Shown in pieces: positions 14,483 to 34,389 of a stretch of 34,389 nucleotides of DNA. The position numbers were made by a program, and so were the translations under genes. The stretch lies in the IMG/VR virus record IMGVR_UViG_3300031673_000261, positions 1 through 34,389 of that record. One strand, 5' to 3'. Source of the stretch: a virus. How positions within the stretch are numbered: the stretch's first letter is position 1; every line of letters begins with the position of its first letter. The notes below the pieces were generated by a model. It saw nothing but the letters and a program-made list of their open reading frames with translations. It did not search any database and had not been told where the DNA came from.

Positions 14483-14719
14483 ATGAAGCGTAGAACTTTT
14501 CTAAAATCTGTTCTTGGTGTTTTGGTTTTACCAGTACTTCCAAAACCAAAGGCGAAAATATCGCCAAAAATACCAAAGAAAATTAGATGGCGTAGGTACG
14601 CAAAATTAGAGGCTCCTGCGATGCCTTTAACTGATGGAATAGAACCAATTAACTGGAAAATGTGGCACGCAACCAGAATCTTAGATGATTCTATTCACGT
14701 ATTGGCAATCTCGGCTTGA
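14483..14719 (+). CDS. Tat-like leader fused to both ends of a major capsid protein
   Basis: 78 codons. The N-terminus MKRRTFLKSVLGVLVLP has the RRxFLK pattern of Tat signal sequences, though no clear AxA cleavage site follows. Residues 34-55 (IRWRRYAKLEAPAMPLTDG) match residues 50-71 of the capsid protein encoded at 15655 (IKMRRYNRYDAATTPLTEG). Residues 57-74 (NWKMWHATRILDDSIHVL) match capsid residues 287-305 (GWKMWQVARILNDLFIHVL). About 215 capsid residues are missing between the two parts. It may be a deleted relic of an older capsid gene or a small protein that interferes with capsid assembly. The start is set by its spacing, one base after the previous stop. Confidence 0.65.
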   Translation: MKRRTFLKSVLGVLVLPVLPKPKAKISPKIPKKIRWRRYAKLEAPAMPLTDGIEPINWKMWHATRILDDSIHVLAISA

Positions 14720-17983: not shown

Positions 17984-20659
17984 ATGAGAAATGTAACATT
18001 CGACCAATGCGACTCTACAGAGGAAATCTGTGGACTGTTTAACAAGGTTTTTGCCAATCAGGAACAAATGGAAGGAAAGATACTTCAACTTTCAAAAAGG
18101 GTAGAAGCTCTGGAACCCATAGTGGTTCCCAAAGTGGAAGACGTAATAGAGTTACCAATTCCAATTCCAATTCTTCCAAAGGCAAAACCGAAAAAGAAAG
18201 GACGTACTATGAAGAAAGGATTTGCACTTACAAGAGTTCTTGCAGTTTTGATGTTAGTGGCAGCTATAGCGGGCTTGTGTTATACGAGTGCTGTGTACGC
18301 GGCCTATGTGCCGACTGACATTACCTACGAGATTGCATCTAACCCCGAAATGCTGGCGACATACCTGAGAGACGTTACGGGTACAATGATTAGCGACTCA
18401 TACCTGTTCACTCCTACTTTACCGGCAAATGCACCGCCACTTGCGGAGGGCAGGGTTTGGTACGATACTACTGCTAATGCCTTGATGCTATCCGTTGACG
18501 GTTTGGCGTGGACGACCATAGCTGCTGCTGGTGGTAATAGTCTTGATGCAGCTTACAATCTCAGCGAGGCAATAACCGTAGATGCCACAGCGGTCACATT
18601 GACTGTTCCTCTTGCTGCTGCTAATCCAGCGTTGATTCTTGTTAGCAACGATACTACTTCCGACCCTGACGTTTTGGTTATTGACCAAAATTCCGACCTC
18701 GCAACTGTTACTGCTGTCCAGATTGATAGTGTTACCGGTTACGATATTCGAGGTACGTCTGATACTTGGTATGTGTCTTATCTTGGCGTTGGTACGTATG
18801 TCGGTCTTGACGTTGGTGCTACCGATATTACACTGGAAAACGACGGCGTAATTAACAACACCACAGATAATGAGATTGAGTTTATCGAGAACGCCGAGGA
18901 GTTCAGCTTTGCCTTTAATGGTAACACACTCACATTAGCCACAGATACGGGCATAGACACTCTTGAGTATGGCGTGGTTGACGATGCTAATGGTCTTGGC
19001 AATATCTATTTTGATTCCGCCGCTTCACAAATCACCCTTGCTGCCAACCAAGACGCTGACGACCTTCTCGTTCAGGTTACAGGCGCTCTTAACGCAACTC
19101 TCGATTTGCGTTCTGCCGGTACTGGCGATGATGCGATTATAGCAAGGGCTACTGCCGGTGGTATTGACGTTGACGCTGTTAAGTCGATAGTTATAACGTC
19201 AGTAGAAAACACCGCTGATTCCATAGTGATACAATCTACCATAGGTGGTATTGATATTCGGGCTGATGCTGCCGGTGCCGCCGAGGATATTGATATTACT
19301 AATACGGGCGGTTCGGTCAATATTGCAGCTACAGAAGACGCTGCGGCTGCCATTACATTGACAACGAATGGCGGCACATCCGAAACGATTGTAGTCACCA
19401 ACACGCAGGGAGAAGGTGCAGATTCTATTACAGTTGCTAGTACAGCCGGTGGAATAGATATTGACGCCGCTTTAGGTATTACAATTGATAACGCCGGAGC
19501 CGCAAGTGATATTGTTCTTACTTCTGCTTTAGGCTCTATAGGACTTTCAGCCTCAGAGGATGCGACAGACGCTATTAACATTGATTCTACGGCTGGCGGT
19601 ATTGATATTGATGCCGTCGGTGAGGCCGGACAGGATATTGTAATCACCAATACCGGCGGTTCAGTTCAGATTGTAGCTACAGAAGCCGCTGCTCTCGATG
19701 CTTTCAATCTTGACGTTACTGGCGCTATTTCAGGCGTTGATGTCGATACTACCAACGGCCCTATAGTCCTTACCGCTGCCAATGCGGATAACGGCGATAT
19801 TACGTTAGTGGCGGCTGATGTTATGACTTTTACCTCTGTTGATACCAAGGTCTTTGACGGTGCGGCTACTGAAGTATGGAATATCACCGGGACGGCTGCG
19901 GGCGGCTTTGAACATATCATTTCCTTCACGGACGCTACAGCAGATATTACCTGGACGTTTCCTGATGGTGGTACTGATATTCTTGCGATTATGGGTTCGA
20001 CCCTTGCGACTAATTATCCTGATATAGCCAACTCTGTTACGGGCGGCACTAACCAGTTAATCTTTGAAGGTGCCGGAGTAGATGCTCACGAGGCCATAAT
20101 TACTGCTACAGACCCTACGGCTGATATTATCTGGACGCTTCCTGATGGTGTAGCACAGACAGTTTCCGTTATGGCTTCGACGCTGGCAACTAATATGCCG
20201 GAAATAGCAAACTCAGTAACAGGCGGTACAAACCAACTTATTTTTGAAGGAACCTTAGACGCCTTTGAGACAATCCTTACAGCTAATGATGCTACAGTGG
20301 CCGACAAAACTCTGACATTACCTAATGATGACGGAGATGTTGTATATGCGCCCGCAGGTGGTACGACTTATGGTGCTGGTGCTGGTGCTATACCTGTCAC
20401 TCATGTTTATGTTGCCTATACAAGCGTTGGTGGTGCCGAAGCCTTGACTTTGGCAGACGGCCAAGATGGTCAGGTAATAGTTATCAATCATGTAGTCGAT
20501 GGCGGTAACGGTGTATTGACTCCCGCAACAGCAGCGGGTTGGACAAGTATTGACCTTGCCGATGCTGGTGATACAGTTTCGTGCATTTTTGTTAATACTG
20601 TTGGATGGGCAATACTTGGTACATCTGGTAATGCCGCACCACCAGTAGTAACACCATAA
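17984..20659 (+). CDS. Repetitive beta-rich fibre-like protein with an internal signal peptide
   Basis: 891 codons; GGGAG precedes the ATG at 17984. Residues 1-75 hold a coiled coil and a Pro/Lys linker. Residue 76 is a second in-frame ATG (18209) with its own Shine-Dalgarno site (AAAGGA) and a Sec signal peptide (FALTRVLAVLMLVAAIAGL, cut after VYA). The body has dozens of repeats around GGIDIDA, DIVITNTGGSV and ATEDAADAI, as in beta-helix fibres. Near residues 640-785 are about two and a half copies of a 58-residue block ending NSVTGGTNQLIFEG. The C-terminal domain has LTLADGQDGQVIVINHV and GWAILGTSGN, like a capping beta domain. It is probably an appendage or adhesin; a secreted form from 18209 is possible. 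Confidence 0.6.
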   Translation: MRNVTFDQCDSTEEICGLFNKVFANQEQMEGKILQLSKRVEALEPIVVPKVEDVIELPIPIPILPKAKPKKKGRTMKKGFALTRVLAVLMLVAAIAGLCYTSAVYAAYVPTDITYEIASNPEMLATYLRDVTGTMISDSYLFTPTLPANAPPLAEGRVWYDTTANALMLSVDGLAWTTIAAAGGNSLDAAYNLSEAITVDATAVTLTVPLAAANPALILVSNDTTSDPDVLVIDQNSDLATVTAVQIDSVTGYDIRGTSDTWYVSYLGVGTYVGLDVGATDITLENDGVINNTTDNEIEFIENAEEFSFAFNGNTLTLATDTGIDTLEYGVVDDANGLGNIYFDSAASQITLAANQDADDLLVQVTGALNATLDLRSAGTGDDAIIARATAGGIDVDAVKSIVITSVENTADSIVIQSTIGGIDIRADAAGAAEDIDITNTGGSVNIAATEDAAAAITLTTNGGTSETIVVTNTQGEGADSITVASTAGGIDIDAALGITIDNAGAASDIVLTSALGSIGLSASEDATDAINIDSTAGGIDIDAVGEAGQDIVITNTGGSVQIVATEAAALDAFNLDVTGAISGVDVDTTNGPIVLTAANADNGDITLVAADVMTFTSVDTKVFDGAATEVWNITGTAAGGFEHIISFTDATADITWTFPDGGTDILAIMGSTLATNYPDIANSVTGGTNQLIFEGAGVDAHEAIITATDPTADIIWTLPDGVAQTVSVMASTLATNMPEIANSVTGGTNQLIFEGTLDAFETILTANDATVADKTLTLPNDDGDVVYAPAGGTTYGAGAGAIPVTHVYVAYTSVGGAEALTLADGQDGQVIVINHVVDGGNGVLTPATAAGWTSIDLADAGDTVSCIFVNTVGWAILGTSGNAAPPVVTP

Positions 20660-20666
20660 TTTATAT

Positions 20667-20712
20667 AGGCAGCGGTAGTCATCTTTTTCTCCAAAATGGC
20701 TACCGCTTGCCT
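20667..20712 (+). terminator. Hairpin after the fibre-like gene
   Basis: AGGCAGCGGTAGTCAT (20667-20682) pairs with 20696-20712 over about 15 bp with one bulged base and one G-T pair; the loop is CTTTTTCTCCAAA. Only TTAAC follows, so it may be a weak terminator or an mRNA end stabiliser. The next gene's start is 18 bases away. Confidence 0.45.
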
Positions 20713-20729
20713 TTAACGAGGTAAGAATT

Positions 20730-21776
20730 ATGGCTGATTTAACTTGGAAGCGTTCCGAGATAAGGACTCGTTGGCGGCAACTGACCGGCAGAACACAGGT
20801 ATCCGATATTGCTGATGTTGACGTTGATGCTCTGATAAACGACTACTACGTAAACTACTTCCCCGAAGATGCTCTCGTCACCAACTTTGACGACTGGTTC
20901 ACACAGGCAGCGATAGCAACGGACAACGGCGAGTATAGTCTGGCTCAGACGATAGTAAAACTAATGGAGCCTATGACGATAAACGGCGCGGAGATTACGT
21001 TTTATCAAGACAAAAATTACTTCTTTCAAAGTTATCCTGATGACGAACAATATATCACCGCCCCAGGAATTGCCATAGGTTCCGTTGATTCTACTAAGGT
21101 CTTGAACGCAGCTTTTAGTTTTGATATACAAGGCCAGTCTTATGCCAAGGCCAGTGCCGAGAATACCTTTATCGGTCTTAGCACGGTTCCCCAGAACAAG
21201 TATGGTGCCTTCTCTCTAACGATAGAATCTGACGGCACAATCACAATCAACGAGGCCGATGATAATGCAACTGGCTACGATTCGCCAGGGCTGGCGATTG
21301 CCGGACTACCCAATGCCGGTAGTGATACGGCTTATATGGGTTTTGTTACCGTGATAGAAACGGCTGCGGCTGGATTCATACCTGGCACAACAGACCTTGC
21401 TACGGGGGGTACGGTAACGGCTACTTATACTGACGGCGACCCTGCCAAAAGGGGAGAACCGTCTGGTGCTTTGGTTATCAATAACAAGTTATTCCTACGC
21501 CCGAAAGCAGATGACACTTACCAGTTTAAGGCCGCCTCGGAGATGAACAGGCCGATTGCATTAGCGGCTGATGCTTCCGTTCCTGCCGATATGAAGCAGG
21601 GGCCAGCGATTGCTATGGGCGCTGCAATTATGTATCTGGCACCGAGGGGCGGGCAGGCAAGGATAGCCGAGCTTACAGGCACACCAAACTTCAGTCTTGC
21701 GGATTATATGTTAAAATCAATACAAACAAAGAAACGGCTGTCTATGCGTGGGCGCGTAGCTGAACCATCTTTTTAG
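20730..21776 (+). CDS. Head-tail adaptor-like protein (possible)
   Basis: 348 codons; the Shine-Dalgarno site is CGAGGTAAGAATT. Residues 1-60 (WKRSEIRTRWRQLTGRTQVS, then DVDALINDYYVNYFPED) are helical, and DNGEYSLAQTIVKLMEPMTI follows, a pattern like the P22 gp4-type adaptor that fits under the portal. A beta-rich insertion of about 170 residues (about 120-290) interrupts the helical part. The last 30 residues (DYMLKSIQTKKRLSMRGRVA) are basic. The adaptor call is tentative and rests on the N-terminal pattern and gene order. Confidence 0.4.
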   Translation: MADLTWKRSEIRTRWRQLTGRTQVSDIADVDVDALINDYYVNYFPEDALVTNFDDWFTQAAIATDNGEYSLAQTIVKLMEPMTINGAEITFYQDKNYFFQSYPDDEQYITAPGIAIGSVDSTKVLNAAFSFDIQGQSYAKASAENTFIGLSTVPQNKYGAFSLTIESDGTITINEADDNATGYDSPGLAIAGLPNAGSDTAYMGFVTVIETAAAGFIPGTTDLATGGTVTATYTDGDPAKRGEPSGALVINNKLFLRPKADDTYQFKAASEMNRPIALAADASVPADMKQGPAIAMGAAIMYLAPRGGQARIAELTGTPNFSLADYMLKSIQTKKRLSMRGRVAEPSF

Positions 21777-21786
21777 GAGAATTATT

Positions 21787-21951
21787 ATGAATTGTGAAAA
21801 TTGTAAATTCTTTGAACCTGTCGGAAGCGTGGGAACCTGTCGAAGATTTCCACCGAATCAGGACGGGAAAGGTGCGCATACAGTAGATGAGTTTCCTACT
21901 GTTAGAAAAGAATATTGGTGTGGAGAACACAAGAAAGGGGCAAGAAAATGA
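21787..21951 (+). CDS. Small four-Cys protein, unknown function
   Basis: 54 codons; AGGAG precedes the ATG. The pattern MNCENCKFFEPVGSVGTCRR, then FPP, then WCGEH belongs to a small four-Cys family common in phage tail regions, probably binding zinc or iron-sulfur. Its role is not known to me. The stop overlaps the next ATG (ATGA). Confidence 0.6.
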   Translation: MNCENCKFFEPVGSVGTCRRFPPNQDGKGAHTVDEFPTVRKEYWCGEHKKGARK

Positions 21952-22388
21952 GAAAGTCACTAATTGTACTACTGATTCTACTGTGTATCGGTGCGGTTTT
22001 GTGGGCGACTGAAACATCTGTTTTAACGAGCTGGGTAGAAAGAAGAAATCAGGAGCCGCTGATAAAGCCGGCCTGGGAGCGCGTTATTACGTTTACATAC
22101 GATGCTGATGATACTTTAGCGAAAACGGAAGCGCTTCCAATCAACTGCATTTTGTTGAAAGTGATACTGGAAATTCCACTCACTACTACTACCGGAACTA
22201 CGGAGCAGTTGTTAATATTAGACAACGGCGATAACACAATCTTTGATTCAACGGAGGTAGCGGAAAACGCTACGCATGTTTTTGATGTTTACGAACCTTT
22301 GACGGGAACTATTGACATTATCTTAGAGCCATCTACCTTTTCTGGCGATGCCGTGACGGAAAAAATTGTTACTCTTCGAGGTATCTGA
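21948..22388 (+). CDS. Sec-exported beta-rich protein, paralogue 1
   Basis: 146 codons from the ATG at 21948, with GAAAGGGG before it. The N-terminus MRKSLIVLLILLCIGAVLWA is a Sec signal peptide, likely cut after LWA. The mature part starts with SVLTSWVERRNQEPLIKP, shared almost exactly with the next gene, and continues as beta strands with ILLKVILEIPLTT and the ending IVTLRGI. Fold and role are unknown. It looks like a tandem duplicate of 22390, so both may be subunits of one appendage or adhesin. Confidence 0.6.
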   Translation: MRKSLIVLLILLCIGAVLWATETSVLTSWVERRNQEPLIKPAWERVITFTYDADDTLAKTEALPINCILLKVILEIPLTTTTGTTEQLLILDNGDNTIFDSTEVAENATHVFDVYEPLTGTIDIILEPSTFSGDAVTEKIVTLRGI

Positions 22389-22389
22389 T

Positions 22390-22827
22390 ATGAAAAAAAC
22401 AACGGTTCTAATTATATTGGCTACTTGTTCTCTTTTATATGCAGCAGGTAACGAGTCGGCTGTTTTGACAAGCTGGGTAGAGCGAAGGAACCAGGAACCG
22501 TTAATAAAGCCAGTTTGGGAATTTGTGATTACAGGCACGTGGACTGCTGAGGATGATGCCGATACGAAGATAACGATTCCTGTAAACGGGGTAATAATAA
22601 CAGTAATCCTTGAAATACCACAAAGCAAAACCGGGGCTGACGTTGAGGTTGAAATAGGAGATAGCGCCGAACATATAATATTCGATTCCGGAGACCAGGC
22701 TGCGGGCGGGACTTGCACTTACAGCATTTTCGAGCCTGTAACAGAAAACATAAAAGTTTGGATGGGGCCATCTATACCATTTGGAGTCGGCGGTGGAGAG
22801 ATTGTAGTCACTTTACGAGGTATTTGA
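22390..22827 (+). CDS. Sec-exported beta-rich protein, paralogue 2
   Basis: 145 codons; the ATG at 22390 lies one base after the previous stop. The signal peptide is MKKTTVLIILATCSLLYA. The mature N-terminus SAVLTSWVERRNQEPLIKP and the ending IVVTLRGI match the 21948 product; the centres differ more (VIITVILEIPQSKTG against ILLKVILEIPLTTTT). Gene ends and junction DNA (CGAGGTAT, TTGATATGAAAAA) are also alike, showing a tandem duplication. Confidence 0.6.
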   Translation: MKKTTVLIILATCSLLYAAGNESAVLTSWVERRNQEPLIKPVWEFVITGTWTAEDDADTKITIPVNGVIITVILEIPQSKTGADVEVEIGDSAEHIIFDSGDQAAGGTCTYSIFEPVTENIKVWMGPSIPFGVGGGEIVVTLRGI

Positions 22828-22828
22828 T

Positions 22829-23602
22829 ATGAAAAAGGTTCTAATAGTCTTATTGGTTTTATCAATAACCATTACTGTCTATGCCGTTTATATAGGGGCA
22901 GGAGTAACATTTGTACGTCCCTTGCATCCACAGGTTAATTCGGTAGGTTTAGTATTCCATTACAAAATGTGGGATGGTTTTATGACCACTAATACAGTCT
23001 TTGATTATTCGCTTAACGAGAATCAAGGCACATCAGCAGGGTTCGTTACGCCGGAGTATCCAGGATTTGATTTTACCTCTGGTGTAATAAACGCAGGTAG
23101 TGGTGCGGTTATTGATGATGTTTTCGATGGCGGCGGTACGCTCTCTACATGGTTGAGACCTGAAAGCCAAGGCCCAACTAATGATGGCAGGGTGGCTGAT
23201 AAGTCAAGGAATGGCAATGAAGGATGGCGTCTATTTTGTCCAGGTTCCGACACCACGTTGGAATTTCACATGGTGACCGATGGGGTAGATGGCGAGTGGA
23301 CGTTCCCTATAGATATGATAGTTGATGTATGGCAACACGTAGTCATTACCTATAATGCCGATGCCACAGCGAATAACCCTTTAGTTTACATCAACGGTCT
23401 TGCGGTTGTTGTAACCGAGACAGGCACACCTAACGATACTCGTACTTCTGATGCCGGTAATACTTTATATTTAGGTTCGGAGGCTTCTGGTGGAAATTAT
23501 TACGATGGTTCGATGGATGATTTTATGCTCTTCAATAGAATATTGTCTGCTGTTGAAGCCAGAAACATTTACGAAGTAACAAAATGGAGATACCAGAGAT
23601 GA
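22829..23602 (+). CDS. LamG-like protein with Sec signal peptide
   Basis: 257 codons. The signal peptide is MKKVLIVLLVLSITITVYA. Residues 45-250 follow the LamG/concanavalin pattern: VGLVFHYKMWDG, DYSLNENQGTSAG, TLSTWLRPES, WQHVVITYNADA, VYINGL, TLYLGSEASGG and MDDFMLFNRILSAVEARNIY. Such jelly rolls bind sugars or proteins. It is probably an adhesin or receptor-binding part. The gene ends in ATGA with the spike gene. Confidence 0.7.
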   Translation: MKKVLIVLLVLSITITVYAVYIGAGVTFVRPLHPQVNSVGLVFHYKMWDGFMTTNTVFDYSLNENQGTSAGFVTPEYPGFDFTSGVINAGSGAVIDDVFDGGGTLSTWLRPESQGPTNDGRVADKSRNGNEGWRLFCPGSDTTLEFHMVTDGVDGEWTFPIDMIVDVWQHVVITYNADATANNPLVYINGLAVVVTETGTPNDTRTSDAGNTLYLGSEASGGNYYDGSMDDFMLFNRILSAVEARNIYEVTKWRYQR

Positions 23603-25263
23603 AAACAAAATTGATTGAAATGATTATCATTATAATCCTGTTTATGTTAATGAGTTCAAGTCTCTGTTTTGCTGGTTGGGACAATACTCTACCGGCGGAT
23701 AATTCTGTTTGGAACGCTGCGGCGGGATTCATACGGAATAACTGGGATGCTCTCGAAGTTGTTTTGGGTGTTGACCTTGCCGGTGGCGGCGTATTTGATG
23801 TTAATGCTGTTGATATTATAACCATGAGTCCCTGGATTGATGTCAGGTATTATGGTGCAACCGGAGACGGAGTTACCGATGATACAGTGGCAATTCAAAG
23901 GGCTATAGTGGTAGCGAGGACTAATGGCGTACCTTTACTTTTCCCTTACGGCGCTGCCGGAACTTATCTTATTACTGCTCCATTGGTTCTTGCTTCTGAT
24001 ACTCTTGCGCCTGTGGATATAATAGGCATAAGTTCGACATGGCACGCCAGAACATTCCCTAAGATTCAAGCTAATATGAACAATACTTTAATAGATGTTC
24101 ACGGCGCAACGCCAACATATAGCACCGGCCCGCTTATCAGAAATATCTGTTTGGAGAATTTGAATGTCGGCGGAGCTAATGTAATATTGAGATGTGATTG
24201 GACGTCAGGTTTGAAGTTAAAAGATGTTAGCATAAGAATTGGCGGCGGTGAAGCGATAAGTGCGGTAGGTACTGGATATTTAGTTTCATCTGTTTTCGAG
24301 AACGTCACTATAACGAATCCTGCCGGTGTTGGTTATGCCGACTTGTATAATTATGGTTATCGAATAAGTCCCCAGTGTAACGATATTACCATAATCAACG
24401 GACGGATTTATGGCAGTATATACGCAATTTTTTATGGGGGCAATACCTTAAACGTATATGGCTTAAACGCTGAATACAATCAGGTATTACTATGGCACAT
24501 AGAAGCGGCATCAATTAACTTTATTGGTTGTCACGTTGAAAACACTCATTGTATAGTTACTAATGCGGATGCGGTTCCAATAGTCGATGGTAACTGGACT
24601 GACAATGCCGGTTTAGGCAACGCCGCAGGAACGGTTACTTTCATCGGTAACACACTTCTTAAAGGTACAAGGTCAAACGCTTTTGTTATTGATAGTCCGG
24701 GAGCAAGTCCTTCTTATCGGCTCGTTTTAATTGGTAATTATGTTTATGATGCTGCTGCTGGTACTACTATTGTAACCGGCAGTTTTACGCCGACTACATC
24801 AGTAGCATTGCCGGTTTCAACAAGAGTAACAGCTTATGGTAATACGGCGGCCTTAACGATTGCGGCATCAGCAACAACCGACCCTACAAGTTTCATAAAT
24901 ACGGATGTGATGGGGGCGGATTCTTATACATATCTTGAACGTCCAATGCTCGGTTTGGCACGACTGGAACCATTAACATTACCGACCGGAGCCACGCCAT
25001 ATATAGGTAGTGGTTCTTATTTTGTGACTGCTAATGTTGGCGCTACCAATGTAACAGATATTCTCTATGCAGCAGGCACGGCTCCTTTAGACGGCTCCTT
25101 GCTAATTCTTGTCGGTGCCGATGGCGGGAATACGACAATTGTGGACGGGGCTACCTTTTTCAATCTTGTAGGCAATGCCAATTTTGCTTTGGGAGATGGT
25201 GATGTACTTACATTGATTTATTCTGGTACTGACTGGCAGGAAATATCGAGAAGCGATAACTAA
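23599..25263 (+). CDS. Pectate-lyase-like tail spike with signal peptide
   Basis: 554 codons from the ATG at 23599, overlapping the previous stop; GGAG lies 10 bases ahead. MIIIIILFMLMSSSLCFAG looks like a Sec signal peptide cut after CFA. The motif WIDVRYYGATGDGVTDDT, then AIQRAIV and LLFPYGAAGTYLI, is the start of a pectate-lyase-3 right-handed beta-helix, used by many tail spikes to bind and often cut surface sugars. The end (LLILVGADGGNTTIVDGA, then FALGDGDVLTLIYSGTDW) is a beta cap. Its stop overlaps the next ATG. Confidence 0.72.
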   Translation: MKTKLIEMIIIIILFMLMSSSLCFAGWDNTLPADNSVWNAAAGFIRNNWDALEVVLGVDLAGGGVFDVNAVDIITMSPWIDVRYYGATGDGVTDDTVAIQRAIVVARTNGVPLLFPYGAAGTYLITAPLVLASDTLAPVDIIGISSTWHARTFPKIQANMNNTLIDVHGATPTYSTGPLIRNICLENLNVGGANVILRCDWTSGLKLKDVSIRIGGGEAISAVGTGYLVSSVFENVTITNPAGVGYADLYNYGYRISPQCNDITIINGRIYGSIYAIFYGGNTLNVYGLNAEYNQVLLWHIEAASINFIGCHVENTHCIVTNADAVPIVDGNWTDNAGLGNAAGTVTFIGNTLLKGTRSNAFVIDSPGASPSYRLVLIGNYVYDAAAGTTIVTGSFTPTTSVALPVSTRVTAYGNTAALTIAASATTDPTSFINTDVMGADSYTYLERPMLGLARLEPLTLPTGATPYIGSGSYFVTANVGATNVTDILYAAGTAPLDGSLLILVGADGGNTTIVDGATFFNLVGNANFALGDGDVLTLIYSGTDWQEISRSDN

Positions 25264-26918
25264 TGTATCAGCCATTTCTTATCTCTGGATTCAAAACAGC
25301 CAAATCGATTGGATTAGAACCTTGGCTTAGTCCCCCCGACGCTTTTCCTACTCTTGAGAATATGCACGTCAACAAAGGGGTCTTGGAGAAACGTCTTGGA
25401 TTCAGTCTGTTCGCTCAGATGAAACACGGAGCCGTTGCACAAACAGTTACGTCTATTGTAGGGATTAAATCTTATGTCAAGAATGGTATGCCCTGCTTAT
25501 TGATAATGGACAGTAAGGGTATGGCTGGAGCATATACAGGTAGATGTAACTTCTACAACCCTGTTGATGCTACTATGACGGACATATCGAGCGTCTTGGG
25601 CGCTCCGGTGGATATTTTCACAGGTTCACCATCGGACTTCTTTCATTTCTGCAACTGGATGGGCGTTGGCTATATGGTCAATAATGTTGACCAGATATAT
25701 CAATGGCCGGGCAGGACTAATCCGGTTGTTCCGTTCAATGTCCATATAGATGATGATATTGCCGCTAATCATATCAATACTTGCAGATTCATGTTTATCA
25801 AAGACGATAGGATGTTGCTTCTGGATACTGTCGAGCATGGCGATTGGTTTCCGCAACGCTGTCGATATAGCCCTGTTCTCCAGACGGTCTTTTCCGTTGC
25901 TGGCGGTGGCAATGTTGATGCTCCTACTTCGGAGCGAATATGTGCGGCTGGCTACGTTGGTAAAAACATAGCGGTCTATACGCAGGGGGGTGATTTGGGT
26001 ACGTTGTGGGAAATCAAATCGACTGGCAATTCTGATATTCCCTTTAAGTGGGACAGAGTGACTACGACCGAACTTATCAGGTCGCCATACTCAGGAACGG
26101 AGATGAAGGATGGCTTGGCCGCAGTTGGCGCTACGAACATCGTATTTTACGATGGCTTTAAGATAAAAGACCTGGACATTCCGAACATCAGAGACATTCT
26201 CAAGGAGTTTAACGATGTCTATATCCGTTCTGTTTATGGCTATGTCCAGAAGGAAGAGCGGCATTTGTTACTTACGTTTGCGGATTCAGCCTCTTCAACT
26301 ATCGACAGGATTCTCGATTACAACATTATGGAGAACAACTGGACGATACACAAATCCACACAGACATTTTTCTTGAATTGTATCGGTGGATTCACCGGCC
26401 AGAAAGTACCTACGATGGCCGAGCTTGATGATGTCGTGGCTGCTGACGGTGCTTTAATAAGCGCGATTACCGTTGATTCAAGGGCTGTACTCGGAACTCC
26501 CAAACCTTACACTCTAATAGGATGCCGGAATAGCAGGGTCTATAAGTGGGCTGATGGCGAGTACGACGGCACTGACGATGATAATGGCAAGATTGAAATT
26601 AAGGCTGAATCAATTGAATTGAACCCGTTTGTAGATAAAGGACTCAAGGTGGCCTGTGAGAAGATAGGGTTTTTGGTAGATAACGTTCCTACCGATTCGT
26701 TTTTAGCCTCTATGTATAAGAACACTTCAACTACCGCCTACAAGACGAAGACAATATCCTGCAATGGTTCTAACGATAATTTCTGGGTGTGGATATTCTG
26801 TGATGGTGAGATAGGCAATTTTCACAAGGTAGAAATAACGCACACTGAAAAGGGCAATACTCCCAAAATACATGCGATATTGCCGTACTTCGATTCGGCG
26901 GGGAGGTTGGACTTATGA
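25263..26918 (+). CDS. Tail hub or stabilisation-like protein (possible beta-propeller)
   Basis: 551 codons with no signal peptide. The N-terminus (FKTAKSIGLEPWLSPPDAFP, LENMHVNKGVLEKRLGFSLF) is typical of short-tailed-phage tail proteins in which a basic arm leads to a beta-propeller. Repeating blade-like strands follow (FFHFCNWMGVGYMVNNVDQI, NTCRFMFIKDDRMLLLD, FYDGFKIKDLDIP, ERHLLLTFADSA). P22 gp10 is a possible analogue. The call is tentative. It overlaps the next gene as ATGA-type coupling. Confidence 0.45.
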   Translation: MYQPFLISGFKTAKSIGLEPWLSPPDAFPTLENMHVNKGVLEKRLGFSLFAQMKHGAVAQTVTSIVGIKSYVKNGMPCLLIMDSKGMAGAYTGRCNFYNPVDATMTDISSVLGAPVDIFTGSPSDFFHFCNWMGVGYMVNNVDQIYQWPGRTNPVVPFNVHIDDDIAANHINTCRFMFIKDDRMLLLDTVEHGDWFPQRCRYSPVLQTVFSVAGGGNVDAPTSERICAAGYVGKNIAVYTQGGDLGTLWEIKSTGNSDIPFKWDRVTTTELIRSPYSGTEMKDGLAAVGATNIVFYDGFKIKDLDIPNIRDILKEFNDVYIRSVYGYVQKEERHLLLTFADSASSTIDRILDYNIMENNWTIHKSTQTFFLNCIGGFTGQKVPTMAELDDVVAADGALISAITVDSRAVLGTPKPYTLIGCRNSRVYKWADGEYDGTDDDNGKIEIKAESIELNPFVDKGLKVACEKIGFLVDNVPTDSFLASMYKNTSTTAYKTKTISCNGSNDNFWVWIFCDGEIGNFHKVEITHTEKGNTPKIHAILPYFDSAGRLDL

Positions 26919-27238
26919 CACTTGAAAGAATTGATACTGATGTAAAGATACCTTTTGACGAAGATGCCCTGTTAAGTGGCGATCCTGCTAAAATTGCAGA
27001 TGAATGGCGTGAACTGGTAAAGACCTTACAGGGGCTTTTGGAGAAGATAACAGTAGCAGCAAATTACGCTTTAGATTTAGTCGATGGTGAAGCGATTTAT
27101 TCAAAACTTAAAAATGCAGATGGCAGTTACCCGATAGGGACATGGAGATTGATACAAGTCGGGGATAATTGGGAACGTCAAGTGCAATTAGTTCTTGGTA
27201 CGTGGACATTCGCTGGCTATTTCGGTTTACCTGTATGA
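26915..27238 (+). CDS. Small tail-associated protein, unknown
   Basis: 107 codons, overlapping the previous stop by 4 bases. The first half is helical (PAKIADEWRELVKTLQGLLE), and the second is beta (GSYPIGTWRLIQVGDNWERQ, TWTFAGYF). It may link tail and fibre parts. No family is recognised. Confidence 0.5.
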   Translation: MTLERIDTDVKIPFDEDALLSGDPAKIADEWRELVKTLQGLLEKITVAANYALDLVDGEAIYSKLKNADGSYPIGTWRLIQVGDNWERQVQLVLGTWTFAGYFGLPV

Positions 27239-28395
27239 GAAAAGTGGTTATAATTTTGTTCTTAGTTTTTTCTTGCTACGGCACAACTTATGCTGATGTC
27301 TATACGTCTCACCAACTACCTACAGCAGATAGCTCGCTTGATATAGGTTCTGCAATCTTGCTGTGGCGGTACATATACGGCGATGCCTTTACCGATGGCA
27401 CAGCATTGTGGGCTGGTAGTGAGCTATCTGGTTTTACCAGCATATCGGGGGTTACTCTTACCGATACGATATTAAACATAACTGGCGGTTCAATCACATC
27501 GGCGGTTAACGGTACGTTCTCAGGTACTCTTGAGGGTGTTGTTTTAACCGATGGCACTTTCATAGCCACAGGTGGTATCGTTACGGCTGGTACGTGGCAT
27601 GGTACGGATATAGACATTTCAGATTACACAAATCTTGTCGCTGGAACTAATATAACATTGGTAAATGACACTCTTAATGTTGACGATGCTTTCCTGATAA
27701 ACGATGGTGATGATACTACCACAGGGACAGTAACGGCGGCGGGTTTCACGACGGCTGGTACGGTGGATACCGGCGTACTCATAGTCGATACCACTACCCT
27801 TGTGGCGAATGTTGCGGGTTATGCAGATAGTGTAGGTATAGGAACGGCGACTCCGGGGGATGTTGGTTTTGCAAAATTGCAGATTAAAGGAGAAGACTCA
27901 TCAGCCATAGGTCCGCACGTAGTCTTTGAAACAACAGAAGACATTTATCCTACTATGCAAATTCTCCCTTTTTTGCATGACAGCATATCTATTGTATTTG
28001 ACGCTTATCTTGATGCTGTTGGATGGAAAAGCTCGGATGCAGGTAGTAATGCCCGTATCCATAAAAATAATGATTTATTGCGTTTCAGATACGATAGTGG
28101 CATCGCTCAAGGCGGCAATGTTATTTGGAATGATGGTTTAGTTATTGATTTAACCAATGGTAATGTCACAACTGATGTTCTTATGGTTGGTTCTAATCCA
28201 CCCGCTACAGCTTTAGCTGCTGGAACTGCGGGAACGATAACCTACGATGCCAGTTATATATACGTTTGCATAGCAGCTAATACCTGGAAACGTGCCGCCT
28301 TGAGTACGTGGGCGGTTACTGATGTCCTTTTGTTGGATGATGGAGCCAGTAAACTCTTATTAGATGATGGAGCCAGTTTTTTACTGATACGATAA
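27235..28395 (+). CDS. Tail-fibre-like protein with Sec signal peptide
   Basis: 386 codons from the ATG at 27235 (ATGA overlap); the frame is open to 27169 but that part overlaps the previous gene. The signal peptide is MRKVVIILFLVFSCYGTTYA. LDIGSAILLWRYIYGDAF, then repeats around GTFIATGGIVTAGTWHGTDI, and SVGIGTATPG are typical of phage fibre shafts. The C-terminus ends with a doubled LLLDDGAS block, coded by a repeated TTGGATGATGGAGCCAGT-like sequence. Likely an adhesive fibre. Confidence 0.65.
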   Translation: MRKVVIILFLVFSCYGTTYADVYTSHQLPTADSSLDIGSAILLWRYIYGDAFTDGTALWAGSELSGFTSISGVTLTDTILNITGGSITSAVNGTFSGTLEGVVLTDGTFIATGGIVTAGTWHGTDIDISDYTNLVAGTNITLVNDTLNVDDAFLINDGDDTTTGTVTAAGFTTAGTVDTGVLIVDTTTLVANVAGYADSVGIGTATPGDVGFAKLQIKGEDSSAIGPHVVFETTEDIYPTMQILPFLHDSISIVFDAYLDAVGWKSSDAGSNARIHKNNDLLRFRYDSGIAQGGNVIWNDGLVIDLTNGNVTTDVLMVGSNPPATALAAGTAGTITYDASYIYVCIAANTWKRAALSTWAVTDVLLLDDGASKLLLDDGASFLLIR

Positions 28396-31300
28396 TGAAA
28401 AAAATCTTACTAATTGTATTGATATTGTCGGCAACTGTTCAGGCCGCAGACACCGAATTGCAGGACTTGGCAGAGTTAGTGGCCATTGACAGCTCAGATG
28501 TTTTTTATGTAGTGGACGACCCTGCCGGAGCGCCTTTATCACGCAAGATTACAGCACTAAATCTTTTCGATATGATAGATACTTCTGCTGAATTACTTGC
28601 TATCCTGACGAATGAGACAGGCACAGGCGCTTTATGTTTTGCGACATCACCTACCTTGGTTACACCTATTCTTGGCACGATTACTTCGGGTGTAGGTACG
28701 GCATTAACAGCTTTGAACGGAGAGAATATACAAGACGATACGATTGACGATGATTCTATCGACTGGGCGGACTGTACGTTTGCAGACTTCGATTTTGAAA
28801 CCGCTTGGCGGATGTGGCATAGCGACGCTGCTGGCGATGTTATTGAAATAACCCTCGGTGCCGATGGTACGTTCCTTGAATCAAACGGCGCTGCCGCTAA
28901 TCCGGCTTTTAGAGTTTTAGCGGATGGTGATGTACCGGATACTATCACTATTGACTTAGCAACGTTGGCGACTACGGTTACGTTGGCAGATGATGACGCC
29001 ACTAACGACAACCAGGATATTGTGTTTACGACAGACGCCGCTGGCCCGGTGAATCTGGAAGCCGATATTGGCGACTTCTATTACAATCCTTCGACCGGCA
29101 CAGTAACGGCTACCGAATATGTTGGCGGCGGAGCAGGGATAACAGGTCTGTCGGTTACTTACGAGAACATAGGTGACCCTGCCGCTGCGGGTTCAATAAC
29201 ATTTCAAGACACTGAAACGGCGACATATATAACCGAAACAACTGCTACGGACTTTTTTGAGATACAGGCAACCGGAGCGTTTGCTGATATTAGTCTCTTT
29301 AGAGTTTCACAGGGTACGGGCAACCCGACAGACGGAGCTTTAGCAGAGTTTGTAACGGCGGATGCTGAGGACGATGTTGACCAGCTCCTTTTAGGTAATA
29401 GCACAGATGACCAGGTAACTTTCCGTATTATAGAGGCTGGGACACTGACAATAGATGTAATCAGTGACGGCACACCGCAGACACAGTTTTCAGACTTAGT
29501 TACGGGTAATGCGGGGATAACGGTAGCTACCACTACAGCCTTTTCTTTTGGTGCGAATAGAATCGACAATGGTGCAGACTTGATTGATGGAGAGCAGATA
29601 GGCAATGATACTATAGACAATGATAGTATCGACTGGGGCGATATGACCGACTTAGATACTGATGGTACAGTAATCTGGGGAAATATAGCTGAAGGCGAAT
29701 TAACTAATGCTTCTGTTATAGATGCTGATATTAAAGACGATACCATTCAGGAACCAGCACTCAATACAACTAACGCTGCCGATGCGGGCACAGACGATTA
29801 TCTTTTGTCGTACAACCACGCTGGCACTAACTTTACGTGGGTGGCTGGTGGCGCTGGCGATATGACAAGGGCAGTGTATGATTCAGGTTTATCAGGTGGC
29901 GTTGACCAAATTACTACAGTTGATAGCACTTATGCCAGTGATTACGTAGTTCTGACCGGAACCGCTGTCGGTACGGATACGCCGAAGACGGATGCGGCAT
30001 TAACCTACGATGCTACGAGCGGCACTTTGGCGGCCACAGAGTTTTCAGGTGGCGGTTCGGGCTTGACACTCGCATCTACAGATTTATCAGACACAGCAGC
30101 CCTTCTTTATGAAACGGAGCTTGATGATTTTGCCGAGCTTGATGCACAGATAGCAGATAAGGCGTTAATAAATCTCGCTGACGGCGGGACGTTCACGGGT
30201 AATATCATTGCCAACGCCAACTTGTCGGTAGGCAATGCCGCTGCTACGGCAGGGGTTTTAACGCTTCTCGAAGATACCGATGACGGTGCTCACTTTGCTT
30301 CTTTTATGGTTCCTGCCCTTGCCGCCAGCACAATCTATACCCTGCCGCCCGACGATGGTGATAACACGGAAGTTCTACAGACAGACGGCGCCGGAACTTT
30401 GACCTGGGTGGCAAACGCAGGAGGCGGCGCAACGGCCTGGGACGATATAGGAGACCCTGACGCAGCAGCGACAGTTGATTTTACGACTTATACACAGACT
30501 ATTGATATAGGAGTTACAGATGACGGCGGCCCGAAAAGCGGCCTTATCTTGGATGTGACAGGTCTTGGAGCGGGCTTGACGGATGTTATAGCCCTTGAGA
30601 TTACCACAACTGCCAATGATGACACTGATTATATACCCATCGCAATATATGATGATTCAGGCGGTGATAACGATGAGATTTTTAAGATTGATTCTTACGG
30701 AAGAATATATATGACAAATGGAGGCTATATTATAAATGTGGATGATAATTATTTCAAATTCGGAGAAAATGGTGATGAATTACGTATGTTTTTTACAAGT
30801 AATGATGTTGATTTACTTTGGTCTGATGGCGCATTAAATCTACGCAATGCAGAGGATGGTGTTGATGGCATAGTAAACATACAAGGCAAGGATACAAACG
30901 AAAAAGGAATCCTGCGAGTAATGTCCGATGGTGACGACAAGTACATTGAGTTACATCACGACGATACAGATGGTCACATCATAACGAACACAGGTGACAT
31001 TCACATCGAACCTGCCGGTGGGGATACAGTCTTTACTGGTGGCGGTGATTTTGGTGGAGCGGATTTAGAATTACCACAAGCAAGTCCTGCCGTCCCTGAT
31101 GCTGATGGCGAAATAGAACTTGATTTTACTGATGGTACAGTAGTCATTCAGCACGGTTCGGCACACGCAGAATTGGGTGCGTCAACTGACGTAGTGGTAG
31201 GCAAGTTGATACGTTCTTTTGGAGCAACTATCTTTGCTCCCGATGGCGTTAATGACGTAATGACGGTCAAGGCAATTAACTCAATCGAGTTTCCGCACGG

Positions 31301-31568
31301 TATAGTTATAACAGCTATTTATCTTGGCGTTTCGTCTGATGATGGTTATGTACTGACTGTTCAGAACTTTGACGATTTCGACACAATCAATGGAGCTAAT
31401 CCAACGATTGATACGGTGACTTATAGTGCCGATACGACAGGTGAGATAATCGACACGACACCTACTTATGCAACGATAGGAGCGGGACAGATAATAATGG
31501 TAAGTATTCCGGCTACAAATGTGGATTGGATACATTTTGAAATTTATTATTATGAGCCAGCGGCCTGA
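28395..31568 (+). CDS. Large tail-fibre-like protein with Sec signal peptide
   Basis: 1057 codons; the ATG at 28395 overlaps the previous stop by one base. The signal peptide is MKKILLIVLILSATVQA. The body is Asp, Thr and Ala rich with fibre-type repeats (ATSPTLVTPILGTITSGVGT, NDTIDNDSIDWGDMTDLD, GTLAATEFSGGGSGLT). DDDSIDWADCTFADFDFE is an early version of a block repeated near residue 410. The last 110 residues form a separate beta domain (IRSFGATIFAPDGVNDVMTV, VDWIHFEIYYYEP). It is probably the long distal fibre or adhesin. Confidence 0.65.
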   Translation: MKKILLIVLILSATVQAADTELQDLAELVAIDSSDVFYVVDDPAGAPLSRKITALNLFDMIDTSAELLAILTNETGTGALCFATSPTLVTPILGTITSGVGTALTALNGENIQDDTIDDDSIDWADCTFADFDFETAWRMWHSDAAGDVIEITLGADGTFLESNGAAANPAFRVLADGDVPDTITIDLATLATTVTLADDDATNDNQDIVFTTDAAGPVNLEADIGDFYYNPSTGTVTATEYVGGGAGITGLSVTYENIGDPAAAGSITFQDTETATYITETTATDFFEIQATGAFADISLFRVSQGTGNPTDGALAEFVTADAEDDVDQLLLGNSTDDQVTFRIIEAGTLTIDVISDGTPQTQFSDLVTGNAGITVATTTAFSFGANRIDNGADLIDGEQIGNDTIDNDSIDWGDMTDLDTDGTVIWGNIAEGELTNASVIDADIKDDTIQEPALNTTNAADAGTDDYLLSYNHAGTNFTWVAGGAGDMTRAVYDSGLSGGVDQITTVDSTYASDYVVLTGTAVGTDTPKTDAALTYDATSGTLAATEFSGGGSGLTLASTDLSDTAALLYETELDDFAELDAQIADKALINLADGGTFTGNIIANANLSVGNAAATAGVLTLLEDTDDGAHFASFMVPALAASTIYTLPPDDGDNTEVLQTDGAGTLTWVANAGGGATAWDDIGDPDAAATVDFTTYTQTIDIGVTDDGGPKSGLILDVTGLGAGLTDVIALEITTTANDDTDYIPIAIYDDSGGDNDEIFKIDSYGRIYMTNGGYIINVDDNYFKFGENGDELRMFFTSNDVDLLWSDGALNLRNAEDGVDGIVNIQGKDTNEKGILRVMSDGDDKYIELHHDDTDGHIITNTGDIHIEPAGGDTVFTGGGDFGGADLELPQASPAVPDADGEIELDFTDGTVVIQHGSAHAELGASTDVVVGKLIRSFGATIFAPDGVNDVMTVKAINSIEFPHGIVITAIYLGVSSDDGYVLTVQNFDDFDTINGANPTIDTVTYSADTTGEIIDTTPTYATIGAGQIIMVSIPATNVDWIHFEIYYYEPAA

Positions 31569-31574
31569 ATAGAT

Positions 31575-31691
31575 ATGGAAAGAGCTTTGTTATTACAAAC
31601 GTGGCCTCGGCCTCAACAGAAGCTATGGCAGGAATTGAAAAAGCAGGGGATTGTGATTCCTGGGCCGGTCAATATGGAACTATATAAATAG
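31575..31691 (+). CDS. Possible 38-codon peptide
   Basis: An ATG at 31575, 6 bases after the previous stop, opens a frame to TAG at 31691. The product is MERALLLQTWPRPQQKLWQE and a short rest that ends in VNMELYK. The ribosome site is poor. It fills the gap exactly and may be a real small tail gene, but support is weak. Confidence 0.4.
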   Translation: MERALLLQTWPRPQQKLWQELKKQGIVIPGPVNMELYK

Positions 31692-31699
31692 GAGAAATT

Positions 31700-32416
31700 A
31701 TGAATAAAAGATTTGTAGGCAAAATAATGCAATGGACGTTGGTATCTCTGGCTTGCGTTGTAATGGTAATTGTGTGTGTGACTCCTTACAGGGTACAAGC
31801 GGCACTAACTATAACTTCAAGTATAATTGATGACTGGGCTGCTGTAGCAGAAGGAGCAACAGATGAAAGCACGGTTATTGCTCTATCGGCTAATTATGCA
31901 ACTTTCGTACACATTCAGGCTTTTACTGATATGAACGATGCCCACGAAGGCACTCTCTTTTCAATTCAAGTTTCAGGAGCGGCTGCGGGCGATGAGGACT
32001 GGTCGGAACTAACTCAATTTATTGCTTTAGTTGGCGATGGTGATTCCGAACCAATTGATGATGACCCGTTGGATGCAACCGATACGACCATTGTAGTATC
32101 CGATACGGGCGGTGGGTACGAAACTGAACCGATGGGAAAGTGGATTGCCATAGAGGACGGTACGCTTATCAATTCAGAACTATGCTGGATAACAGGATTT
32201 ACGACCGACACAAATATTACAGTGTTAGACGGCGTAACCAATGCACACGCCGTATCTACTTTGCTTTGGGATGTTGCAATGTCGAGGACGATAATGATTC
32301 CATTCGGTTCGGGGGCGAGGGCGAAGGTGATTTGTATGAACGGATACGATATAGACGGAACAGCGTCATCGCTAAACTGGAAAGTGGGGAAGACGGTAAC
32401 AACGGCGCTTAACTAA
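31700..32416 (+). CDS. Sec-exported beta-rich protein, unknown
   Basis: 238 codons; TAGGAG precedes the ATG. MQWTLVSLACVVMVIVCV is the hydrophobic core of a signal peptide cut after VQA. The mature protein is beta rich (FVHIQAFTDMNDAHEGTLFS, TTIVVSDTGGGYETEPMGKW, TNITVLDGVTNAHAVSTLLW) with a basic C-terminus. Similar short proteins occur in phage tail regions, but I do not know a function. Confidence 0.55.
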   Translation: MNKRFVGKIMQWTLVSLACVVMVIVCVTPYRVQAALTITSSIIDDWAAVAEGATDESTVIALSANYATFVHIQAFTDMNDAHEGTLFSIQVSGAAAGDEDWSELTQFIALVGDGDSEPIDDDPLDATDTTIVVSDTGGGYETEPMGKWIAIEDGTLINSELCWITGFTTDTNITVLDGVTNAHAVSTLLWDVAMSRTIMIPFGSGARAKVICMNGYDIDGTASSLNWKVGKTVTTALN

Positions 32417-33336
32417 TGAAGAAACTAACTATACTATTATTGATTTGCTTATTAACGACTTCGGTTTTTGGTCAATGGCAATCTGGCGTAAAGCCCCTTT
32501 TAGGTCGGCAAGTAAACTGGGCACATCCTCTGTCTAAGGGTCTTGTCGGTCTCTGGCTATTCAATGAAGGCTCAGGCGATATCGTCAATGATTTGAGCGG
32601 GAATGGGAAAACAGGTACTCTGCAATCTGGTGTTTCATGGTCTATTTCTGATTATGGTTGGTGTCCTTATGGAGTTCAGAATAATTCCGGTATAATAACA
32701 GACCTCTATTCCGCATCATGGGACAATGGTTTCAGTATAATTGTTAGAATAACTCCAGATAGTAATTTAGGGACAAGCGATTATATTGTTGATGATTCTA
32801 ATGGCTCTGTTGGTCTCGCTGTAAGGACTGATAGTTCTGATGCCACAAAATTAGATTTTTTCACTTATCCAGGGCCGTGTATATTAGAACCGACTACAGC
32901 ATTTTTAGCTGTAAATACTCCTACTGTTATTGGTGTTATACATGGTCCCACAGCGAACCATCTTTATAAAGACGGGACATATATTGATTCTGATAGCACT
33001 AATTTCACTTTAGCTATTGCTGATAGTGCATCTCCATTGGCATTCTTATCAGAGTATAATAGTCAAAATGCAATACCCGCCAAAATTGATTATATCTTAG
33101 TTTACAACTGTGCCTTATCTGCTTCTGAAATAGCCCAACTCTACAGTATGCCATTTTGTATGTTTGAGGGCGATTTAACAGTTGCACAAATGTACGATTA
33201 TAGCGGTGCGCCACCGGCCCCATCAAGCCAATTTATTATGATTCAAATGACGGCGATACCGTTCTCCATAATAATTATAATCGCAATTTCTCCGGTGTTT
33301 AGAAAATGGAAATCCAGATATTCAATGATGACATAG
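32416..33336 (+). CDS. LamG-like protein with signal peptide and C-terminal membrane anchor
   Basis: 306 codons; the ATG overlaps the previous stop by one base. The signal peptide is MKKLTILLLICLLTTSVFG. WAHPLSKGLVGLWLFNEGSG, DLSGNGKTGTL and ILVYNCALSASEIAQLY are classic LamG (phage jelly roll) landmarks. Residues about 278-294 (AIPFSIIIIIAISPVF) form a membrane span followed by a basic tail (RKWKSRYSMM), the type I membrane topology. It would be held in the cell membrane with its sugar-binding domain outside. The end overlaps the next gene by 31 bases. Confidence 0.68.
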   Translation: MKKLTILLLICLLTTSVFGQWQSGVKPLLGRQVNWAHPLSKGLVGLWLFNEGSGDIVNDLSGNGKTGTLQSGVSWSISDYGWCPYGVQNNSGIITDLYSASWDNGFSIIVRITPDSNLGTSDYIVDDSNGSVGLAVRTDSSDATKLDFFTYPGPCILEPTTAFLAVNTPTVIGVIHGPTANHLYKDGTYIDSDSTNFTLAIADSASPLAFLSEYNSQNAIPAKIDYILVYNCALSASEIAQLYSMPFCMFEGDLTVAQMYDYSGAPPAPSSQFIMIQMTAIPFSIIIIIAISPVFRKWKSRYSMMT

Positions 33337-33800: not shown

Positions 33801-34389
33801 ACGGGCTGCTTCAGTGGAGATATTAAAGGACAGAGTGTTCAACAGGTTGAGAAATTAACACCGGAACAACAGCGGTTAGTGGCCTTGCTAACCCAAAAGG
33901 CTGCACCGGCAATTAGTGGTGTTGGTGGAGCTACCATTCCCGGTATGGAGTTTGCGCCCGGCGGGCCTTCTGGATTACAACAGCAGGCATACGGTATGGC
34001 AGGACAGGATATTAGTCAAATGATGAGACCTGTATCCGACTTTGCGCAGAATATATTTCAACAGGAAACTATACCATCTATTATGTCAGCTTTGGGTGCT
34101 GGCGGTATGGCTCGTAGTAGCGGGGCTGCGAATATACTCGGCAGAGAAGGCCGGAATCTCGGTATGGGTATGGCGGCTCAATTCGCACCGATGCAGTTCC
34201 AACAGCCGGGTATGATGGCTGGATTAGGCGAACAGCAGCGAGGTATAGGGGAAGAGCAGACACAATATGGTCTTAATAGATTTATGATGGGCGCTCCGGA
34301 AGCCGACCCGCGATTAGGATTCATAGGCCCGGCGTTTACTTCTGCTTACGATACCGCCGTACAACAGGGATTTATGTCGCCCGGACTTG
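33801..34389 (+). CDS. Ejection-type virion protein, 5' part, non-ATG start
   Basis: The frame is open from the in-frame TAG at 33789 to the end of the window. AGAGGTG at 33790-33796 is a good Shine-Dalgarno site and the first codons after it are ATC (33798) and ACG (33801), followed by GCFSGDIKG; the next ATG is near 33949. ACG in place of ATG is the likely start, or a sequencing error. The product is Gln, Gly, Ala and Met rich (GMAGQDISQMMRPVSDFAQ, GMARSSGAANILGREGRNLG), typical of internal ejection proteins of short-tailed phages. Confidence 0.5.

Follow-up and report, generated by a model that had tools for sequence, protein, structure and literature searches.

Conserved Sec-type signal sequences on the distal tail proteins of a group of uncultured short-tailed phages

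The standard teaching is that tailed phages are assembled in the cytoplasm of their host. Phage-encoded export signals are known from the coat proteins of filamentous phages, which carry signal peptides and whose virions are extruded through the membrane, and from signal-arrest-release (SAR) endolysins, spanins and lipoproteins, which are exported for lysis and exclusion. Here we describe the tail module of an IMG/VR virus contig, IMGVR_UViG_3300031673_000261, of which the whole stretch of 34,389 bases was analysed (hereafter, the window), together with that of its relatives. In these phages conserved Sec-type signals appear to be restricted to the distal parts of the tail, namely fibres, spikes and proteins of LamG fold, a pattern that is well supported by the comparison of predicted proteins. 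The likeness to filamentous phages is that virion proteins would pass through Sec before assembly, but the present phages are of the head-and-tail type, with a terminase, a portal and a capsid, which places them outside the Inoviridae. SAR endolysins, spanins and lipoproteins share with the present proteins the use of phage-encoded export signals, and spanin-like and lipoprotein-like genes are also found in this group, but those proteins are not structural parts of the virion.

The closest described systems are found among the podoviruses. The window nozzle resembles those of the short tails of P22 (gp10), T7 (gp12), VP1 and Pa223 in profile and fold, and phage Y3 carries an annotated N4-gp56 capsid homologous to the window capsid (phrog_1357 family), likewise followed by adaptor and nozzle-type genes. 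Assignment to the tailed phages (Caudoviricetes) was based on matches to phrog_2 (terminase), phrog_156 (portal) and phrog_1357 (capsid). Among the matches listed, identity to cultured phages reached 40.5% for the terminase and was 21-29% for the portal and 24-31% for the capsid (best 25 of 33 rows), while the nozzle (three different queries), the adaptor and the protein encoded at 31700 found no match in the phage collection searched. Gene content points to a group of uncultured short-tailed phages (podoviruses), for which a close cultured relative was not found. A second contig, IMGVR_UViG_3300031669_000047 (48,765 bases), is near-identical to the window at almost every base and, since the window bridges both of its ends, is close to a complete genome; it includes a spanin-like gene (phrog_739, E=9.7e-7), which suggests a diderm host. 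The relatives were retrieved through adaptor and nozzle searches.

It had been proposed in an earlier note on the window that nine proteins of the tail module begin with Sec signal peptides, and this description was borne out: a basic start followed by a hydrophobic core is present at each of the nine N-termini, an A-x-A-type end at most of them, and the reading frames and starts are as described. The tail-module genes described here and the small gene at 14483 lie on the + strand. Under a rule requiring a basic n-region, a 10-residue charge-free core and small residues at -3 and -1, and thus by sequence criteria for Sec signals of the signal peptidase I type, seven are signal peptides (SP) at the called start, one is an N-terminal transmembrane segment (TM-N) and one is an SP at an internal start. 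The seven comprise a small beta-sandwich protein (21948-22388), for which an AlphaFold2 model (predicted local distance difference test, pLDDT, 84.3) and a fold search gave a generic jelly roll and no specific assignment; its paralogue with a signal peptide of its own (22390-22827); a LamG-fold protein (22829-23602; signal end VYA; Pfam Laminin_G_3, E=6.5e-19); a spike (23599-25263; CFA) with an AWDN-type anchor domain, a pectate-lyase-like domain and a weak match to a depolymerase C-terminal domain; a fibre (27235-28395; TYA) that overlaps its upstream gene by 4 nt; a long fibre of 1057 aa (28395-31568; VQA); and a LamG-type protein homologous to that at 22829 (32416-33336; VFG). The remaining two require some qualification. 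The 238-aa protein at 31700-32416 has a strong core and a basic n-region, but the rule classes it as TM-N and its VQA follows an Arg in the c-region (PYRVQA/ALT, the slash marking the signal end here and below). The signal of the first fibre (17984-20659; conserved mature start YVPTDITYEIASNP) holds only if the internal ATG at 18209 is used (signal segment 18209-18301, A-x-A-type site VYA), but the open reading frame itself opens at 17984. The genes are tightly packed, with stop-start spacings of +1 (22390), +1 (22829), -4 (23599), -4 (27235), -1 (28395) and -1 nt (32416), so that for six of the nine signal-bearing starts the distance to the preceding stop is at most 4 nt. As had also been described, the adaptor (20730-21776), the nozzle (25263-26918) and the small tail protein that follows it (26915-27238) carry no signal in the window under the rule, and no other called window gene is positive except a small Tat-like protein at 14483. 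The adaptor owes its name to its position and to the earlier reading; a profile search of the PDB gave no match for it, and its homologues are rule-positive in 0/25 cases.

The performance of the rule was calibrated on a 45-kb stretch of E. coli K-12, using 34 of its 44 coding sequences; the ten excluded were for the most part truncated genes or genes for multi-span membrane proteins, and classes were assigned from product names. SP was called in 9/10 exported proteins, the remaining one being TM-N, and in 0/22 cytosolic proteins, one of which was TM-N; the single lipoprotein was scored as SP and the single Tat protein as negative. As a control, the late modules of eight other tailed phages (genes >=100 aa) were tested in the same way as the relatives, giving 5/158 positives (4 SP, 1 TM-N, none at an alternative start), namely a lysozyme, an 'inner membrane subunit', a transglutaminase-type peptidase, a T7 Rz-like spanin and one hypothetical protein. 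In the control late modules, those of P22 and T7 included, no annotated tail gene was positive, whereas most distal parts are positive here. The chance level, determined with a slightly stricter rule in a test that took in 47 of 54 distal rows, was 0/147 SP-like segments at start codons lying inside eight SP-less core genes, with 0/48 in antisense open reading frames.

It was further suggested in the earlier note that homologues in related phages be searched for signals, and Sec signals on the appendage module indeed extend to a large group of relatives. Across 23 contigs, made up of the window and 22 relatives (of which two lack a gene there), 66/116 genes of >=100 aa downstream of the adaptor are positive (51 SP, 9 TM-N and 6 SP at an alternative start), compared to 5/158 in the controls (Fisher 2.4e-25; 60/116 and 5e-22 without alternative starts), although related contigs are not independent. 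Families were then built from the window proteins, with window genes included, overlap duplicates removed and every start retested. On the head side, no positive was found for the terminase (0/13), portal (0/17), scaffold (0/22), capsid (0/24), p16614 (0/25) and p17354 (0/11), so that with the adaptor the sum is 0/137, as opposed to 46/52 for the distal families, that is, the first fibre, spike anchor (18/20), LamG (8/10), fibre 27235 (4/4) and p31700 (4/4). Intermediate values were obtained for the small protein 21948 (6/15 distinct homologues, including the paralogue), p26915 (3/14, in relatives G010, G011 and G013) and the nozzle (3/16). Signals thus track distance from the head. Outside these sums stand p13179 of the head region (1/9, an artefact in G004) and p33879 (0/10). 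Some rows were dropped by hand: the capsid family lost two small Tat-like proteins and the spike-anchor family one row, G010 L024:5268, and also removed were an internal-domain LamG row (G022) and a further p26915 positive (L050) that is a rule artefact; the G011 small-protein gene, which is in two pieces, was counted once. When 67 of the 71 listed SP-bearing proteins were scanned for families, the matches included LamG (8), beta-helix (5), Gp53-like tail fibre (3), pectate lyase (2), phage collar (1) and Peptidase_S74 (1), as well as a single Toxin_R_bind_N match in Pfam that was taken as a lectin-fold match; in PHROGs, a tail-fibre family tops the list.

In the first fibre of the window the signal is internal to an 891-aa frame. 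In the window (17984-18208) and in relatives, a conserved N-domain of about 50 aa and a Lys-rich linker are fused in frame before the signal, and the start at 18209 is preceded by a Shine-Dalgarno-like AAAGGA. A hydrophobic core (2.80-3.86) stands immediately before the conserved mature motif in 13/13 contigs that align there, the row of a fourteenth (G015) aligning elsewhere. The rule is positive in 12/14; G006 and G007, which it misses, possess the core but lack an adjacent start codon. A further six relatives have, at the corresponding position, a gene that opens directly with a signal. The N-domain is found in 16 contigs, and in 12 of these, judged by eye, an ATG, GTG or TTG preceded by a Shine-Dalgarno-like site follows a KKG-type motif; it is possible that the internal start yields a second product. 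A prepilin-type (class III) signal, suggested by KGF-like motifs, was set aside because most relatives can be read as having a Shine-Dalgarno sequence plus start at that site, and because the core is followed by an A-x-A-type site.

The protein formerly termed a 'hub' (25263-26918) is, according to its sequence and predicted fold, a podovirus tail nozzle of the P22 gp10 / T7 gp12 type. Its profile matches the nozzle of Vibrio phage VP1 (8zkk_O/8zkm_E, E=1.2e-7), and although the pLDDT of its model is only 63.9, the top Foldseek matches are podovirus tails (Pa223, SU10, VP1, Pan3 and P22, with T7 lower; VIA Z 21.3, rmsd 4.5 over 437 residues). The statement that the hub lacks a signal is valid for the window, but four relatives carry a nozzle signal: G010, G011, G013 and, as a separate case, L118. 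In the first three the signal stands immediately before the residue at which signal-less nozzles begin, and the gene starts in a 4-nt stop-start overlap with its upstream neighbour. Contigs scanned whole contain one nozzle each, and in these three the only nozzle found is the SP-bearing one. A midpoint-rooted tree of 37 nozzles was built with signals excluded and with the truncated L120 and four identical nozzles omitted; chromosomal cassettes, in which the positives are host genes of the flanks, were assigned manually to the SP-poor group for that reason. One side of the tree holds all 24 contigs with >=2 SP genes near the nozzle, plus the SP-poor L091, whose nozzle is close to the end of the available sequence, and the other side holds 12 SP-poor contigs (support of the dividing branch 93/91). 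Label shuffles as ordered as this tree were 0/500, and a minimum of two changes is required on it to account for the nozzle signals.

The junctions between signals and mature proteins are modular. The nozzle begins MYQPFLI when signal-less and VRA/QEYQPFLI with a signal, the anchor MAWDNTKP versus CFA/GWDNTLP, and the small protein MATLDRRNE versus LLM/AATYDHRNE. SP-less orthologues of the anchor (G016, G021), the small protein (nine contigs) and LamG (G016, G011) have their first residue at the mature start or close to it, and the p31700 proteins of the window and G010 share about 70% of mature residues, with unrelated signals. Such joins fit export signals that would be cleavable and gained or lost as units. 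Signal-less sister phages and cassettes display the same core order of capsid, adaptor, anchor-position gene, nozzle, small protein, GNAT-position gene and next gene, and their core genes are without signal, one other L108 gene and a head-decoration-like L116 gene scoring as SP. The SP group has added signal-bearing fibre, LamG and spike genes between the core genes.

Taken as a whole, export, cleavage and assembly after a membrane breach provide the most likely explanation of these signals. That the distal tail is exported by Sec and joined to filled heads once the inner membrane has been breached is given an even chance. In such a process, each fibre, spike and LamG protein would be made with a Sec signal peptide and cross the inner membrane, signal peptidase would trim it to the N-terminus at which signal-less relatives begin, and the exported parts would wait in the periplasm or envelope, while the cytoplasm would be the site at which the heads with portal and adaptor, and in the majority of members the nozzle as well, are built; a holin or lysis would then breach the inner membrane, allowing the exported parts to join DNA-filled heads. 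In two lineages the border would have shifted inward by one part, with the nozzle exported too. The fuller proposal of a two-compartment virion, whose distal tail is Sec-exported, added when the inner membrane opens and finished in the envelope or outside the cell, is put forward tentatively, at slightly under an even chance. Several observations weigh against such an assembly. Signals are patchy, being carried by a minority of the small protein, p26915 and nozzle homologues and being missing from two anchors, and G016 bears none on three downstream genes (small protein, LamG and anchor), so that export cannot be a universal requirement for those parts. The signal-bearing nozzles of the trio start with GTG or TTG, and two of the three have no visible Shine-Dalgarno site. 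The sealing of podovirus heads that lack their nozzle would pose a difficulty in the lineages with exported nozzles. Of the 67 scanned proteins, two are false positives of the rule (O-antigen-ligase-type membrane enzymes), and a few positives in relatives resemble head-decoration homologues. Moreover, cysteine content (0.86% in SP proteins vs 0.76% in the rest) shows no sign of an oxidising compartment; it neither supports nor excludes export.

Two readings had originally been offered for the signals, virion parts assembled in or on the envelope and an adhesin layer on the infected cell, and the former fits better because the only nozzle found in three relatives carries a signal. It is doubtful that the proteins, instead of belonging to the virion, form a layer that coats the infected cell or blocks receptors. 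Surface glycan binding is indeed typical of LamG, pectate-lyase and jelly-roll folds, and lipoprotein-like and Tat-like genes in the head region together with two O-antigen ligase matches give the impression that these phages modify the envelope. Nevertheless, the signal on the only nozzle copy of G010, G011 and G013 speaks most strongly against a layer confined to the surface, and we are not aware of any function of a nozzle away from the virion; in addition, an anchor-type gene adjoins the nozzle in signal-less phages too, and the SP proteins match tail-fibre and tail-spike families. A somewhat better candidate, though still unlikely, is dual targeting, in which a cytoplasmic pool is assembled normally and an exported pool would, for example, block receptors or degrade capsule, as a result of inefficient signals or of second products from internal starts. 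The N-domain in frame with the first-fibre signal and its Shine-Dalgarno-preceded starts are in line with this, as is a Met at position 35 that is shared by the three related SP nozzles and replaced by different residues in signal-less relatives, yet the internal nozzle ATG has weak or no Shine-Dalgarno support and no comparable internal start was seen at the mature N-terminus of the other SP genes aligned.

It is also improbable that the signals act as uncleaved anchors holding tail parts at the inner membrane, with heads docking from the cytoplasmic side and the first-fibre N-domain serving as docking site. The N-domain and Lys-rich stretch before the first-fibre segment would give the N-in, C-out topology required, but the joins carry A-x-A-type sites and signal-less orthologues begin at that very residue, both of which favour removal of the signal. 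An artefact of wrong start codons or of chance hydrophobic N-termini has been largely refuted and is very improbable: the upstream in-frame start of the first fibre and the GTG or TTG starts of some SP nozzles might suggest it, but stop-start overlaps, the null results at internal starts and in antisense frames, and the retention of signals in distal as opposed to head-side homologues speak against it.

Three cassettes of one type, two of them in bacterial genomes and one in an IMG/VR contig, possess core tail genes without signals. They are podovirus structural cassettes (L065 8918-20000 and L067 15502-20000 + L068 1-8550, from G214 and G553; L090), which in the two bacterial genomes span about 11 kb and run from terminase to nozzle and beyond. 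The G214 and G553 copies have the same flanking genes by eye, one lies on a 230-kb contig, and no integrase or replication gene was seen in them when the gene list was judged by eye. In a comparison of seven genes, internal stops were lacking and dN/dS was 0.05-0.17 at dS ~0.7-1.6, and the cassette may be a podovirus-type gene transfer agent or another domesticated element. These copies emerged when the nozzle profile was run against 395 genomes of what we take to be the Desulfobacterota, as read from the family name of a Syntrophaceae metagenome-assembled genome (L043); three matched, the SP-less cassettes of G214 and G553 and, weakly, G382 (E=1.1e-4). L043 itself was the sole adaptor match in the scan of genome contigs and was not used as evidence for the host of the SP group: the match covers only adaptor residues 114-235 within an 845-aa frame, the nozzle profile has no match in that genome, and the adaptor profile matched 1/155 genomes of its order, which is that genome itself.

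Other exported-type genes occur elsewhere in these phages. Small proteins with a Tat-like RR motif lie mostly in the portal-scaffold region, including that of the window (14483-14719; MKRRTFLKSV), where the Tat reading is by motif only, and those at L016 3426, L024 16938, L035 5614 and 7185, L046 27, L050 3264 and L051 3216; the motif scan also returned one open reading frame in one of the eight control phages and a small tail protein at L005 8426 that is no Tat candidate. The C-terminal part of the window protein (KMWHATRILDD) resembles by eye the C-terminus of the major capsid protein (KMWQVARILND), and the protein has weak BLAST matches to capsid proteins of relatives. Lipoprotein-like genes of the same region (L032 10019, L034 9198, L038 8538, L045 4221) are possibly exclusion factors, and an O-antigen ligase (Wzy_C) match in the tail region (L050 8507-9985) may reflect host surface conversion. 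Small exported or lipoprotein-like proteins are also encoded outside the tail module in three genomes (L020 16080-16466, L027 14234-14770, L029 1-365), the only one scanned, that of L020, giving no family match. At the end of the window a signal-less open reading frame (33879-34388) is cut and continues as L021 2661-3338, a Peptidase_S74 domain being recognized in the longer contig.

The remark in the earlier note that no described phage has this arrangement was not contradicted by literature searches, in which no description of Sec-exported phage tails was found among the titles listed, most subscription papers being outside their scope; the passages on signal peptides seen in PMC6102473 and PMC10638138 concern methods and references. 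Systematic tail export, if true, would break the rule of cytoplasmic assembly. Tail parts released from one lysed cell might then decorate the heads of another, and these phages would represent a secreted, periplasm-folded source of phage depolymerases and adhesins. As signals are switched on and off lineage by lineage, tail export is directly testable through pairs of orthologues with and without a signal.

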